Positions 8,645 to 13,043 of a stretch of DNA of 64,000 nt are shown here, one piece after another. A program made the translations under genes and the position numbers. The stretch comes from Acidobacteriota bacterium (lineage in GTDB: Bacteria > Acidobacteriota > Thermoanaerobaculia > UBA5066 > Gp7-AA6). Every line of letters begins with the position of its first letter. Position 1 is the stretch's first letter. The stretch is from contig DAHUXD010000014.1 in the NCBI GenBank assembly GCA_027307335.1, forward strand, positions 1-64,000, given 5' to 3'. A model generated the notes under the pieces. The model ran no database searches. It had not been told where the DNA came from and saw only the letters and a list, made by a program, of their open reading frames with translations.

Positions 8645-10690
8645 CTAGGAAATGGGGCCCTTTCGCAGGCGGATCGTCCCCGACGTCGTGCGCACCTGGA
8701 TCTTCTCGCCGCCTCCGTTGAGCGTCCCGGTGGCGCGCTGCACGCCGTTTCGCCGCGACACGCCGAGCTCCGCGAAGTCGGATCGGATCGCGGTGTCCTC
8801 GTCGTCCGCTCCCGTGACGACCAGCTCGACGTCGGCCTTGCACTCCGCCGGCAGGCCTAGCGTCACGTCGCCGCCGTCGTTCCGAATCGTCACCATGCCG
8901 CGCCCGTCGCAGCCTGCGAGGCCGATGCGGATCTCGCCGCCCGCGGACGACGCCCGGACGCCGCCGCCCACCCGGGGCACGCGGATGTCGCCGCCGGACG
9001 TGCGCGCGTCGAGGTTGCCGCCGACTTTGTCGATGCGGATGTCGCCGCCCTTGGTGTCGGCGAGCGCCGAGCCGGAGACCGGCCCGACGATGATGTCGCC
9101 GGCGAGGGTCGAGGCCTTCAGATCGCCCGTCACGGGCCCCATCGAGATGTCGCCGCCGAAGGTCTTGAGGTCGGCGCCGGCGCCCGCTCCCGCGACCCGG
9201 ATCTCGCCCGAGTGGGTCAGGATCTGCACCCGTCCGCTCACCTTTCCGACGCGGTAGTCGCCGCCCGAGGTCGACAGGAAATCCCCCGCGACGTCGCCGC
9301 GCACGACGTCGCCTTCGTCGGGGATCGCCGGGGGCGCCGGCGGCATGGCCCGCGGCGGCCGGGCGGCGGGCGGAGCGGGGGGAGCCGGCGGCGAGGGGGG
9401 CGCGACGACCATGTGGGGCGTCGCCACGTGCACGCGCACGTCCGGGACGGTGACGACGAAGGAGCGGCGCTCCGACACGAGCGCCTTCGCGTCGGCCTCG
9501 GCCGTTCCCGCCGCGAGCAGAAGCACCTTGCCGTTCAAGGTCTCCATCCGAACCTCGGGGCCGCCCTTTCCGATCGAGCCGGTGTACTCGCGCTGAGGAT
9601 TCGGAATCTCGATGCGGCGGATCTGCTTCTCGATCTGGCGCTGCTGCCTTTCGATCTCGCGCTGCTGCTGCTCCGTCTCGCGCGTGTTGTTCTCGATCTG
9701 GACCTGGATCTCCTTCATCGAGTCCGCGAGCTCCTGGTCGAGCTGCGAGAGGTCGATCTCCTGGCGGTTGCCGTCCTCGTCCTCGACCACGACCTTCGGC
9801 TTGCTCCTGCCCTTCGCTTTCCCGTCGCTCCGGCCGCGCCCGTCTCCCTCGTCGGGCGGCACGGTCCAGACCGCGGAACCGGCGCGGGGCGGCAGCGGGA
9901 ACGTCGAGGCGATCGTCCCGTTCATGGTCGAGGCGGAGAAATCGAATCGCGCGTCCTTCGGGAGCGTCAGCATCACGTTGCCGTTGACGGACTGCAGTGA
10001 GACGTCGGTCCCGCGCGGCAGCGCACGGGCGACCGCCGCGTCGATCCGGCCGTTCACCGTCTGGAGCGACAGGCCCTTCTTCGCGCCGCGGACCTCGATC
10101 GATCCGTTGACCGATTCGAGGCTCGCCTCGCCGTCGAGGTCGTGGATGCGCACGTCGCCGTTGACGGTCTGCAGCTCGACGTCGACGCCCGGCGGCACGA
10201 CCAGCTCGTAGCGGGCGACGAGGCGGCACGAGGAACACGGCATTCCGTGCCGTCCGTCGTGGCGGCCCGGCCGCTCGCCCGGCAGCACCGTCTCGAGGCT
10301 CCAGCCCTCGTCGTCGTGCTCGGACGTGATCTGCGTCTTCTTCAGCAGCTCGTTGGCCCTCTCCGCCGTCGCGGCCGTCGCGGTCAGCGTGACGACCGCC
10401 GAAAAGGCCGGCCCCGGCGCCGCGATGACGTCCCCGGAGACGTTCTCGACGTGCAGAGTCTTGCCGGCGCCGAGGGTGCCGTTGAAGCGATCCACGCGCG
10501 TCACGGTCGTCTGCTCGGCCTTGCCGATCGAGACGAGCATCAGGAGCAAACCGAGCACGAGGGCGATCCAGAGAGCGAGCCGATCGGCGCGCTCGGAGCG
10601 CGTCGCGGATCGGGAATCTTCACGAGGGAACTTCAGCATGTTCATCATCGAAGAGAGACGCGCGGAGGGCATCGGAGTTACTCGCAGCAT
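8645..10690 (-). CDS. DUF4097-type beta-repeat envelope protein
   Basis: 681 residues from the first ATG, 10 nt after the anti-sigma stop; internal starts at 10648 or 10639 are also possible, and none has a clear Shine-Dalgarno. One hydrophobic segment (about residues 39-57, LALWIALVLGLLLMLVSIG) would act as an uncleaved signal or anchor. The rest alternates short beta repeats (TVNGDVRIHDL, SVNGSIEVRG, STLAGDIIVGP) typical of DUF4097 putative adhesins. Between two repeat blocks lie a Gln/Arg/Glu coiled coil (about 320-360) and a Pro/Ala linker (about 430-460). A CxxC (MPCSSC) is present. Third gene of an ECF sigma operon, so probably a stress-regulated cell-surface or periplasmic protein. Confidence 0.75.
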   Translation of the reverse strand: MLRVTPMPSARLSSMMNMLKFPREDSRSATRSERADRLALWIALVLGLLLMLVSIGKAEQTTVTRVDRFNGTLGAGKTLHVENVSGDVIAAPGPAFSAVVTLTATAATAERANELLKKTQITSEHDDEGWSLETVLPGERPGRHDGRHGMPCSSCRLVARYELVVPPGVDVELQTVNGDVRIHDLDGEASLESVNGSIEVRGAKKGLSLQTVNGRIDAAVARALPRGTDVSLQSVNGNVMLTLPKDARFDFSASTMNGTIASTFPLPPRAGSAVWTVPPDEGDGRGRSDGKAKGRSKPKVVVEDEDGNRQEIDLSQLDQELADSMKEIQVQIENNTRETEQQQREIERQQRQIEKQIRRIEIPNPQREYTGSIGKGGPEVRMETLNGKVLLLAAGTAEADAKALVSERRSFVVTVPDVRVHVATPHMVVAPPSPPAPPAPPAARPPRAMPPAPPAIPDEGDVVRGDVAGDFLSTSGGDYRVGKVSGRVQILTHSGEIRVAGAGAGADLKTFGGDISMGPVTGDLKASTLAGDIIVGPVSGSALADTKGGDIRIDKVGGNLDARTSGGDIRVPRVGGGVRASSAGGEIRIGLAGCDGRGMVTIRNDGGDVTLGLPAECKADVELVVTGADDEDTAIRSDFAELGVSRRNGVQRATGTLNGGGEKIQVRTTSGTIRLRKGPIS

Positions 10691-10700
10691 GGAGATGCGC

Positions 10701-11696
10701 TCAGAAGGACATCGCCTTCAGCGCCGAGGCGGCCTTGGCGCGGACGAAGTTGTTTTCCTCCGGGTCGACCGCCTTCTCGCGGAGGGACTGGATCGTGCTG
10801 GCATCGGGCGACTGCTTCGCCCCCGCCGCCAGGGCGTCCACGGCCGCCAGGCGCACCGCGGGGTTCTTGTCGGACTTCAGCGCGTCGAGAAAGGCGCTCC
10901 GGATCTCCGGCGTCATCGTGAAACCCGCGAGGGCGTCGGCCGCCTTCTTCCGCACGCCGGGGTTCGCGTCGGTGCGCAGCGTCTTCGTGAGCGCCGCGAC
11001 GATCTCGGGGGAGGCGGCCGTCTGCGCTCCGGAGAAGTGCTCCGACACGAGCTCGATCGCCCGCGACTTCTCGCCCGCGTTCTCCGCGTTGTGCGTGACG
11101 AGGTAGGCGAGCAGCTTCGCCACTTCGGGATCGCTCGGCTTGCCGTCGATCTCGTGGCGCGTCGTCAGGTCGAAGGCGATGGAGATTCGGCCGTCCTTGT
11201 CCGCCGGGCGGTAGGCGACGTTCGCGAGGCGCGGGTTGCCCTCGAATCCGGGCACGGCGCCCGTGGCGGCGCCCGGCGCGGTGGGCGTGACCGCGCCGGC
11301 CATGGGAGTCACCGCGCCCGAGGGGCGTCCGGCGACGGCGGCGGGAGACGCCGCGAACGGAAGTCCCTTCGCCGCGAAGTAACCCAGGGCGCCCGCGGCG
11401 GCGAGCGACGCGGCCTGCAGCAGCGGCCGCGCGAAGACGGGACGGGGGCGGAACGCCCGGACGCGGCCTCGCCGCATCTCGTCCTCGAGCAGGCCGAGCG
11501 TCCGGCGGCGGAACTCGGGGCTCACGTCCGCGTCGGCGTCCCGGCCGAGCGTCGCCCAGAGTGCCTCGAGCCCTTCCGCCTCGCGGCGGCAGCTCTCGCA
11601 GCGGGCGAGATGCTCGGAGAGGGCGCGGCGCGAAGCCTCGTCGGCCTCGCCGGTCAGGCGCTCGATCGCGAGCGCGGTCAGGTCGCGGCAGTCCAT
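10701..11696 (-). CDS. Zinc-finger anti-sigma factor with HEAT repeats
   Basis: 331 residues. The N-terminus has Cys3 and H29-x3-C33-x2-C36 (EHLARCESC), the zinc-binding anti-sigma (zf-HC2) motif that holds an ECF sigma factor. A single transmembrane segment follows at about 91-109 (PLLQAASLAAAGALGYF). The outer part (about 200-330) contains HEAT-like repeats, for example ASPEIVAALTKTLRTDANPG and DALKSDKNPAVRLAAVDAL. The ATG has an upstream GGGAG and overlaps the sigma gene by 19 nt, typical of a sigma/anti-sigma pair. HEAT repeats on an anti-sigma factor suggest sensing through a protein partner outside the membrane. Confidence 0.85.
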   Translation of the reverse strand: MDCRDLTALAIERLTGEADEASRRALSEHLARCESCRREAEGLEALWATLGRDADADVSPEFRRRTLGLLEDEMRRGRVRAFRPRPVFARPLLQAASLAAAGALGYFAAKGLPFAASPAAVAGRPSGAVTPMAGAVTPTAPGAATGAVPGFEGNPRLANVAYRPADKDGRISIAFDLTTRHEIDGKPSDPEVAKLLAYLVTHNAENAGEKSRAIELVSEHFSGAQTAASPEIVAALTKTLRTDANPGVRKKAADALAGFTMTPEIRSAFLDALKSDKNPAVRLAAVDALAAGAKQSPDASTIQSLREKAVDPEENNFVRAKAASALKAMSF

Positions 11697-12253
11697 GACG
11701 TCTCTCCCTCGGAAAAACGGGCCTTCAGCGTTTCGACGGCCCGGAAGATGCGGGTCTTGACGGCGCCGACCGAGATCCCCAGCGTCTTCGCGATCTCGGC
11801 GTACGGCATTCCGTGATAGCGCGCGAGGACCAGCGCCTCGCGCTGCTCCTCGGAGAGGTCCGCCAGCGCTTCGCGCACGGCCTCCCGGCGCTGGCGGGAG
11901 GCGATCGTCGCCTCGACGCCCTCGCCGCGGGCGCGCGGCTCGGCGACCGACTCGAGCGGCACCACGGCGGCCCGGCGCTCGCGGCGCCGCCGGTCGCGGC
12001 AGGCGTTGGCGGCGATGGCGAAGAGCCACGACGCGACGCCGGCCCGGCCGTCGTACTGGTGGGCCCTGGAAATCACCTTCAGAAAAACCTCCTGCGTCAC
12101 TTCCTCGGCCGAGGCCCGATCGGAGAGCATCCGGTCGGTGAACCGAAGGAGCGCCGGCGCGTAACGCTCGAAGAGCTCGGCGGCGCCGTCGGTGTCCCCG
12201 CGGCGGATCCGCTCCAGCAGAACCGCGTCGTCACTTCCGGAGTTCATCTCCAT
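11678..12253 (-). CDS. ECF (extracytoplasmic function) RNA polymerase sigma factor
   Basis: 191 residues from ATG 12253 (a second ATG two codons later is possible). Region 2: AAELFERYAPALLRFTDRML, DRASAEEVTQEVFLKV and ASWLFAIAANACRDRRRR. Region 4: ALADLSEEQREALVLARYHG and the helix-turn-helix MPYAEIAKTLGISVGAVKTR. The short region 2 plus 4 architecture is that of group 4 sigma factors. It heads an operon with its anti-sigma factor and a DUF4097 protein. An ECF-like promoter precedes it, implying positive autoregulation. Confidence 0.9.
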   Translation of the reverse strand: MEMNSGSDDAVLLERIRRGDTDGAAELFERYAPALLRFTDRMLSDRASAEEVTQEVFLKVISRAHQYDGRAGVASWLFAIAANACRDRRRRERRAAVVPLESVAEPRARGEGVEATIASRQRREAVREALADLSEEQREALVLARYHGMPYAEIAKTLGISVGAVKTRIFRAVETLKARFSEGETSWTAAT

Positions 12254-12271
12254 TCGGCCCGGCCACACGGA

Positions 12272-12298
12272 GAGACGGCGGGGGGAGGCGAAGGTTTC
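12272..12298 (-). promoter_or_regulatory. Candidate ECF-type promoter of the sigma operon
   Basis: Read on the minus strand, GAAACC (12298-12293), a 15-nt spacer and CGTCTC (12277-12272) match the GAAAC ... CGTC layout used by many ECF sigma factors. The start codon lies 18 nt further downstream. This suggests that the sigma factor transcribes its own operon. Confidence 0.5.
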
Positions 12299-12362: not shown

Positions 12363-13043
12363 GTGGAACACAAGGTCGTCGATTTCGCCATTCAGCTGGC
12401 CGTCGTGCTCTTCGCCATCTCGTTCCACGAGTCGGCCCACGCGTTCGCGGCGCTCCTGTTCGGGGACACCACGGCGCGGGACGCGGGGCGCATCAGCCTC
12501 AATCCGATGCGCCACATCGACCCGGTCGGGTCGATCCTCCTGCCCCTGATTCTCTACATCTTCTCGGGGCTCATCTTCGGGGCGGCCAAGCCGACCCCGG
12601 TGGACCTCCGGAACACCCGGGACCCGCGTCTCGCCAATCTGGTCGTCTCCGCCGCGGGCCCGGCTTCCAACTTCCTCCTCGCGACGATCGGCATCGTGGT
12701 CTTCGCTGTGATCCGGCGGGCCCGGCCGGAGGCCATGGGCGACCTGCTCGAGGCGCTCCAGGGGGCGCGGTTCGCGTCGGGGGCGCTGGCGCCGATCACC
12801 TATCTCCTGTTCTTCTTCGTCCTCGTCAACGTGATGCTGGGGGTCTTCAACCTGATCCCCATCCCGCCGCTCGACGGGAGCGGGGTGCTGCTGTCGATCG
12901 GCGGACCCGCCGTGGCCCGGGTCTTCGCCGTCATTCGCCCGTTCGGGTTCCTGATCCTGCTGCTGCTGATCGCGACGCCCGTGCTCGGCAACCTCTTCCG
13001 GCCGATCCAGGGGATCGTGCTCCGCCTCATCTTCGGAGCCTGA
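12363..13043 (+). CDS. Site-2 protease family (M50) membrane metalloprotease
   Basis: 226 residues, GTG start. The zinc-binding HExxH is HESAH at residues 22-26 inside the first hydrophobic helix. The third ligand region is FNLIPIPPLDGSGVL. Five or six hydrophobic helices and no PDZ domain place it in the small group-3 S2P/Rip3-like proteases of unknown substrate. It precedes trpS by one base. Whether it acts on the neighbouring anti-sigma factor is open: it is divergently transcribed, and S2P enzymes often cleave anti-sigma factors. Confidence 0.88.
   Translation: MEHKVVDFAIQLAVVLFAISFHESAHAFAALLFGDTTARDAGRISLNPMRHIDPVGSILLPLILYIFSGLIFGAAKPTPVDLRNTRDPRLANLVVSAAGPASNFLLATIGIVVFAVIRRARPEAMGDLLEALQGARFASGALAPITYLLFFFVLVNVMLGVFNLIPIPPLDGSGVLLSIGGPAVARVFAVIRPFGFLILLLLIATPVLGNLFRPIQGIVLRLIFGA

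Follow-up and report, generated by a model that had tools for sequence, protein, structure and literature searches.

The described systems closest to the locus reported here are the RpoE-RseA-RseB pathway of Escherichia coli, in which rseB follows rpoE-rseA and PDZ sensing operates, the sigma-W/RsiW pair of Bacillus subtilis, with the sigma-W promoter consensus TGAAAC/CGTA, and the Lia and phage shock protein (PSP) systems, in which a Toastrack protein (LiaG, LiaX) is coupled to a transcriptional regulator of membrane stress. DUF4097 (Toastrack) proteins, about whose function little is known, are very common. An operonically linked sigma factor was mentioned by Ravi et al. 2024 in a DUF2089-type context, and a HEAT anti-sigma factor is not mentioned there (PMC11237479). 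The present analysis deals with a 64,000-nucleotide (nt) stretch of DNA from an Acidobacteriota bacterium (assembly GCA_027307335.1, contig DAHUXD010000014.1, positions 1 to 64,000; hereafter the window), which carries, one after another on the minus strand, the genes of an extracytoplasmic function (ECF) sigma factor, an anti-sigma factor with HEAT repeats and a Toastrack protein (Table 1). A first-pass annotation of the window had named these three genes, and all of them are present with significant domain matches. Taken together, the sequence evidence makes it moderately likely that this trio is an autoregulated envelope-stress ECF module.

Conservation of the three genes

The sigma protein matched Sigma70_r2 (4e-16) and r4_2 (6e-20; PF04542 and PF08281, both above the cut-off) as well as TIGR02937 (1.3e-31), and its 191 amino acids (aa) hold sigma70 regions 2 and 4 with little in between, as in ECF sigma factors. 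Its gene overlaps that of the anti-sigma factor by 19 nt, and a gap of 10 nt separates the latter from the first DUF4097 ATG. In the class to which the window's genome belongs, 27 loci were counted, the window included, with decayed and distant paralogous loci left out. The sigma and HEAT anti-sigma genes were followed by a Toastrack gene in 26 of them, and the remaining locus is cut by the contig end. In the rest of the Acidobacteriota sample, loci were accepted at E 1e-15 or better; among the 29 that had a sigma gene, the Toastrack gene came next in 22, and a gene for a secreted double-PDZ protein stood in its place in seven. Since relatives of this PDZ-variant group show the gene order sigma, anti-sigma, Toastrack, PDZ, the seven loci have probably lost the Toastrack gene. 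In some Acidobacteriota (L200-L203, L210-L212, L215-L218, L221), the gene for the secreted double-PDZ protein stands in third or fourth place in the operon.

A single-sequence scan of selected genomes gave no match, whereas an alignment-based scan did. With the alignment, the anti-sigma factor was found in three further phyla: Ignavibacteriae (38 of 296 genomes), Latescibacterota (6 of 64) and Marinimicrobia (68 of 149). A sigma gene upstream and a Toastrack gene downstream were present at 52 of the 56 loci inspected (Ignavibacteriae 30/30, Latescibacterota 4/6, Marinimicrobia 18/20), and the genes flanking the trio varied between loci. Judged by this distribution, the trio is an ancient module found in at least four phyla, and adjacency by chance is excluded. 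The first-pass annotation had put forward co-occurrence of the three genes for checking, and this held: rather than being absent from relatives, the trio recurs from phylum to phylum amid different neighbours. In genus g4, decayed copies were seen, one of which (L058, 7300-8800) has lost an internal segment from every one of the three genes.

An ECF-type promoter in front of the operon

The window's promoter reads GAAACCTTCGCCTCCCCCCGCCGTC (12274-12298) and is the sole core match within the 64-kb window; its upstream edge coincides with the end, at 12298, of the region delimited in the first-pass annotation. The pattern AACCT[TC]-N13/14-[CG]GTC was found upstream of the sigma gene in all 27 class loci, and the strict form AACCT[TC]-N13-CGTC in 26 of the 27, as compared with a mean of 0.012 loci and a maximum of 1 in shuffled regions. 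AAC-N15-18-GTC, a looser and common pattern of which single matches carry little weight, was present upstream of the sigma gene at 30/30 loci of the Ignavibacteriae phylum, 17/19 of the Marinimicrobia phylum and 11/32 of the other Acidobacteriota. Autoregulation of an ECF sigma factor is commonly recognised by a site of this kind at its gene. The sigma factor would recognise an AAC-type -35 and a CGTC-type -10 element, and the prediction that it transcribes its own operon is well supported by the conserved promoter sequence. The ECF-type promoter before the sigma gene, with related promoters in other phyla, is new here. In genus g4, the motif was also seen before a broken sigma gene (L168).

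Domains and topology of the anti-sigma factor

The anti-sigma factor matched the Pfam families zf-HC2 (4e-5) and HEAT_2 (1.6e-19), and its profile matched the solved RsiW 5WUQ_C over residues 1-79 (E 1.4e-6). The zinc ligands C3, H29, C33 and C36 (H-x3-C-x2-C plus an upstream Cys) were invariant among 26 homologues, and by homology the protein is an anti-sigma factor of the class I zinc-finger (RsiW) type. Marinimicrobia homologues (L087, L089) have lost the zinc-ligand cysteines and kept the transmembrane (TM) helix, the cap, the HEAT domain and the Toastrack neighbour.

The AlphaFold model of the protein, with a mean predicted local distance difference test (pLDDT) score of 84, contains one predicted TM helix. 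A single uncharged helix stands at the identical position in all homologues, and K/R residues are generally commoner N-terminal of it than after it. Because of the RsiW homology of the cytoplasmic part, the positive-inside charges and this one uncharged helix in all homologues, an outward HEAT domain is favoured; sequence and model support this orientation without proving it. The architecture read in the first-pass annotation (zinc finger, one membrane helix, HEAT repeats) agrees with zf-HC2, the model helix and HEAT_2, and its external placement of the HEAT domain is favoured by the RsiW homology, the charge bias and the model as a prediction, short of proof.

The Toastrack protein

The model of the Toastrack protein comprises one N-terminal helix, two beta regions, a 45-residue helix (299-343) and a C-terminal beta helix, and its best PDB match was 4QRK (Foldseek E 1.1e-5). 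The Toastracks of class-mates begin with what seem to be ordinary signal peptides; in the order to which the window's genome belongs, a cleavable signal peptide and an anchor are equally conceivable for the N-terminus. Thus, of the anchored beta-repeat protein with coiled coil and CxxC described in the first pass, the repeats, the coiled coil and the CxxC are present, whereas anchoring is unproven, a signal peptide being equally possible. The CxxC was considered as a redox sensor and dropped, since it is restricted to the window's family. A role as the pathway's site-2 protease was considered for the M50-like neighbour and likewise dropped, the adjacency occurring in just two of three family members, beside trpS.

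Table 1. Features of the locus, in coordinates of the window.
Feature	Position	Strand	Details
ECF-type promoter GAAACCTT-N13-CGTC, predicted autoregulatory	12274..12298	-	-35 at 12291-12298, -10 at 12274-12277
ECF sigma factor gene	11678..12253	-	191 aa; ATG 12253 or 12247; Pfam Sigma70_r2 and r4_2
Anti-sigma factor gene	10701..11696	-	331 aa: zinc finger, TM, linker, beta cap, HEAT repeats
Predicted cytoplasmic zinc-finger anti-sigma domain, aa 1-79	11460..11696	-	zf-HC2; ligands C3, H29, C33, C36
Single predicted TM helix, aa 90-112 (89-111 in model)	11361..11429	-	Most hydrophobic stretch in all homologues
Ala/Pro/Thr-rich disordered linker, aa 113-154	11235..11360	-	pLDDT <50 over 112-142
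Conserved three-strand cap, aa 155-185	11142..11234	-	Model strands 158-185; kept in other phyla
HEAT-repeat ectodomain (predicted), aa 189-331	10704..11132	-	HEAT_2 1.6e-19; model helices 190-328; alphaRep/ARM/HEAT matches
Exported Toastrack (DUF4097) gene	8645..10690	-	681 aa (666 aa with start 10645); PF13349 1.1e-16; beta-helix model
Export signal or signal anchor LALWIALVLGLLLMLVSIG, then KAE	10523..10579	-	Model helix 16-39
CxxC (CSSC) of Toastrack, family-specific	10226..10237	-	Only in window, L031 and L032 (three genomes)
45-residue helix, coiled-coil insert, order-specific	9617..9751	-	H299-343; class-mates outside the order without insert
C-terminal beta-helix lobe of Toastrack	8657..9307	-	Model; best-conserved part toward distant members
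Divergent M50-like metalloprotease gene, neighbour outside the module	12366..13043	+	Beside trpS; adjacency also in L031, not in L032 or other relatives

Candidate regulon in trans

In the window's genome the motif precedes three of the four Toastrack genes at almost equal distance, namely that of the operon and those at C65 and C18. The motif copy at C65:105104-105126 (CGTC) stands 43 nt before an exported Toastrack gene and that at C18:54593-54615 (CGTT) 44 nt before another, the chance per region being about 4-7e-4. The fourth Toastrack gene, without the motif, is that of a second ECF operon, which consists of a sigma factor, a HEAT-less anti-sigma factor and an exported Toastrack (L185, G000:C20, 2656-5497, minus strand). 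At C65 (L182, G000:C65, 2556-4230), the Toastrack gene is divergent from a BlaI-like regulator and a membrane gene that follows it, and the intergenic region holds a motif copy each way, CGTC toward the Toastrack and CGTA toward BlaI.

The pattern CAACCTTT-N11-14-GTCTAA was scanned in 24 genomes of the Ignavibacteriae phylum and gave 27 sites, a count that, like the following ones, includes close relatives, so that independent events are fewer. Fifteen sites lay before a sigma gene matching that of the module and five before other exported Toastracks; the rest preceded four DUF5916/CBM9-like exported proteins and one MacB-like permease, and two were unclear. Ten sites were found in 14 further trio genomes, among them two sigma genes, one Toastrack, an HlyD-like adaptor and, by sequence resemblance, five DUF5916-like proteins. 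Three sites were found in 16 genomes without a detected HEAT anti-sigma factor. At L318 and L319, in genomes of that kind, the same promoter type stands 22 nt upstream of a different ECF sigma gene. With promoter evidence both in cis and in trans, Toastracks are likely targets of the sigma factor, and they are probably regulon output in cis and in trans and not simply the thing sensed.

Further sites were seen among class relatives. Genome G035 (L186-L199) has 28 exact GTAACCTT-N13-CGTC sites and the same-genus G041 has one; many of the G035 sites lie just upstream of an amplified family of proteins of about 180-250 aa, and the four members compared with Pfam had no match. In two genomes of genus g4 (L167 and L176), an orthologous exact motif stands about 123 nt before a secreted protein that, by eye, has carboxypeptidase-regulatory-like repeats.

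Proposed mechanism and alternatives

According to the mechanism that we propose, the zinc-finger domain would hold the sigma factor at the inner membrane, as the RsiW homology suggests, and one TM helix and a flexible linker would put the HEAT domain, together with its three-strand cap, on the outer side, from which it may detect an envelope signal via protein contact. This signal would free the sigma factor by proteolysis or conformational change. The free sigma factor would transcribe its own operon from the AACCTT-N13-CGTC promoter and probably also two other exported Toastrack genes in the window's genome; in Ignavibacteriae, DUF5916 proteins are perhaps raised as well. The Toastracks might then act in the envelope as a protective scaffold or as chaperone-like surfaces, and the amount of Toastrack supplied may in turn act on the HEAT domain, shutting the response off; a HEAT contact with the DUF4097 protein is possible as such feedback. 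The sequences themselves show the gene order, the domains, the conserved promoter and its association with particular genes, and from them the binding, the signal, the release, the role of the Toastracks and the feedback are inferred. The envelope theme, already present in the first-pass annotation, is backed by the exported Toastracks, the PDZ-PDZ partners and the regulon candidates with signal peptides. In a more specific form, put forward tentatively, this would be an undescribed ancient circuit of envelope homeostasis in at least four phyla, with exported Toastracks as the main output and an outward HEAT domain that measures free Toastrack or substrate in a titration feedback loop.

Several observations weigh against an autoregulated envelope-stress module with Toastracks as output. 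No protease or release step was identified for the sigma factor, the TM helix of the window's anti-sigma factor is weakly hydrophobic (1.28), and the promoter is unrecognisable in the family with the PDZ variant. Toastrack domains are placed inside the cell by Ravi et al. 2024 (PMC11237479), whereas the Toastracks described here carry export signals. As regards the targets in trans, reversing the Ignavibacteriae pattern still yielded 10 sites in the 24 genomes scanned, so that a few of the sites away from the operon may be due to chance. Two of the three sites in genomes without a detected HEAT anti-sigma factor precede a different ECF sigma gene (two genomes); the AAC/GTC promoter type is thus common to other ECF sigma factors, and the trans targets might belong to another one. 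In the window's genome, the strict pattern GWAACCTT-N13-CGTC gave one other exact site, with no clear gene behind it. The C65 and C18 sites were sought at the Toastracks after this stricter genome scan had missed both, because the bases before AACC differ, and the C18 site reads CGTT rather than CGTC.

An alternative close to the first-pass annotation is that the Toastrack is primarily an RseB-like co-regulator, which binds the HEAT ectodomain and by its occupation or loss frees the sigma factor. Its exported product, the third position after sigma and anti-sigma, the tight co-conservation with the HEAT anti-sigma factor and the fact that both HEAT folds and Toastrack faces offer surfaces for protein binding fit this proposal. 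On the other hand, Toastracks seem to belong to the regulon in trans as well, the HEAT-less anti-sigma factor has a Toastrack third gene too, and seven loci combine a HEAT anti-sigma factor with no adjacent Toastrack. All three observations speak against the Toastrack as the sole signal, although binding as feedback is still compatible with them; we regard a primary RseB-like role as unlikely, if worth serious attention. It is also rather unlikely that the trans Toastrack and DUF5916 genes are under other ECF sigma factors of similar preference and that this one serves only its own operon. Most class relatives outside the order have a single exact GTAACCTT motif, namely that of the operon itself, a similar site is used by other ECF sigma factors, and the window's genome has at least one more of these; against this, the same two gene types recur among the non-operon sites of trio genomes, and the spacing matches in the window's genome.

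The two other alternatives touch the basis of the proposed module. If the hydrophobic stretch were no membrane helix, the HEAT domain would be cytoplasmic and would read an internal signal, and the hydrophobicity is indeed weak in the window's protein and in several homologues. However, the hydrophobic helix is co-located in all homologues, with the K/R bias before it and a disordered linker after it, the architecture is of the RsiW type, and partners and targets are exported, which makes a cytoplasmic HEAT domain improbable. That the three genes are mere neighbours with no common function has a negligible chance: no observation in its favour was found, and against it stand about 100 loci from at least four phyla that agree in gene order and strand and differ in their surroundings, the overlapping or near-overlapping genes and the one conserved promoter in front.

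Comparison with known systems

In the literature searched (few subscription papers, with the main ECF classification outside it), no description of the HEAT anti-sigma factor or of the trio was found, and envelope-stress control in Acidobacteriota, Ignavibacteriae, Marinimicrobia and Latescibacterota seems little described there. The promoter motif links several Toastracks, in cis, in trans and across phyla, to one sigma/HEAT anti-sigma pair, and the resulting hypothesis is that exported Toastracks are effectors of an envelope-stress regulon.

By content, as far as family matches tell, the module belongs neither to the PSP/Lia nor to the RseB systems: the Pfam and NCBIfam matches of the three proteins included no RseA or RseB family, and none of PspA, PspC, LiaI-LiaF-TM and DUF2089 passed its cut-off in them. 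With the Lia/PSP systems it shares a Toastrack coupled to a transcriptional regulator of membrane stress. It is like sigma-W/RsiW and other class I anti-sigma factors in the sequence of the N-terminal domain, the one predicted TM helix and the ECF partner, and the GAAAC-N16-CGTC promoter resembles the sigma-W consensus. It differs from RsiW in that no PrsW/RasP-type protease partner was identified, a predicted HEAT ectodomain and a beta cap replace the outer part, and a Toastrack is encoded by the third gene. The likeness to RpoE-RseA-RseB lies in the outline, that is, a sigma factor, a membrane anti-sigma factor and an exported third protein in one operon, and the PDZ-PDZ gene in some Acidobacteriota operons recalls the PDZ sensing of that pathway; the third protein is here a Toastrack beta helix in contrast to RseB. 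The logic of the tentative titration loop would be comparable to that of RseA/RseB, with unrelated parts, and the module as a whole appears to be a so far undescribed form of an envelope alarm of known type.

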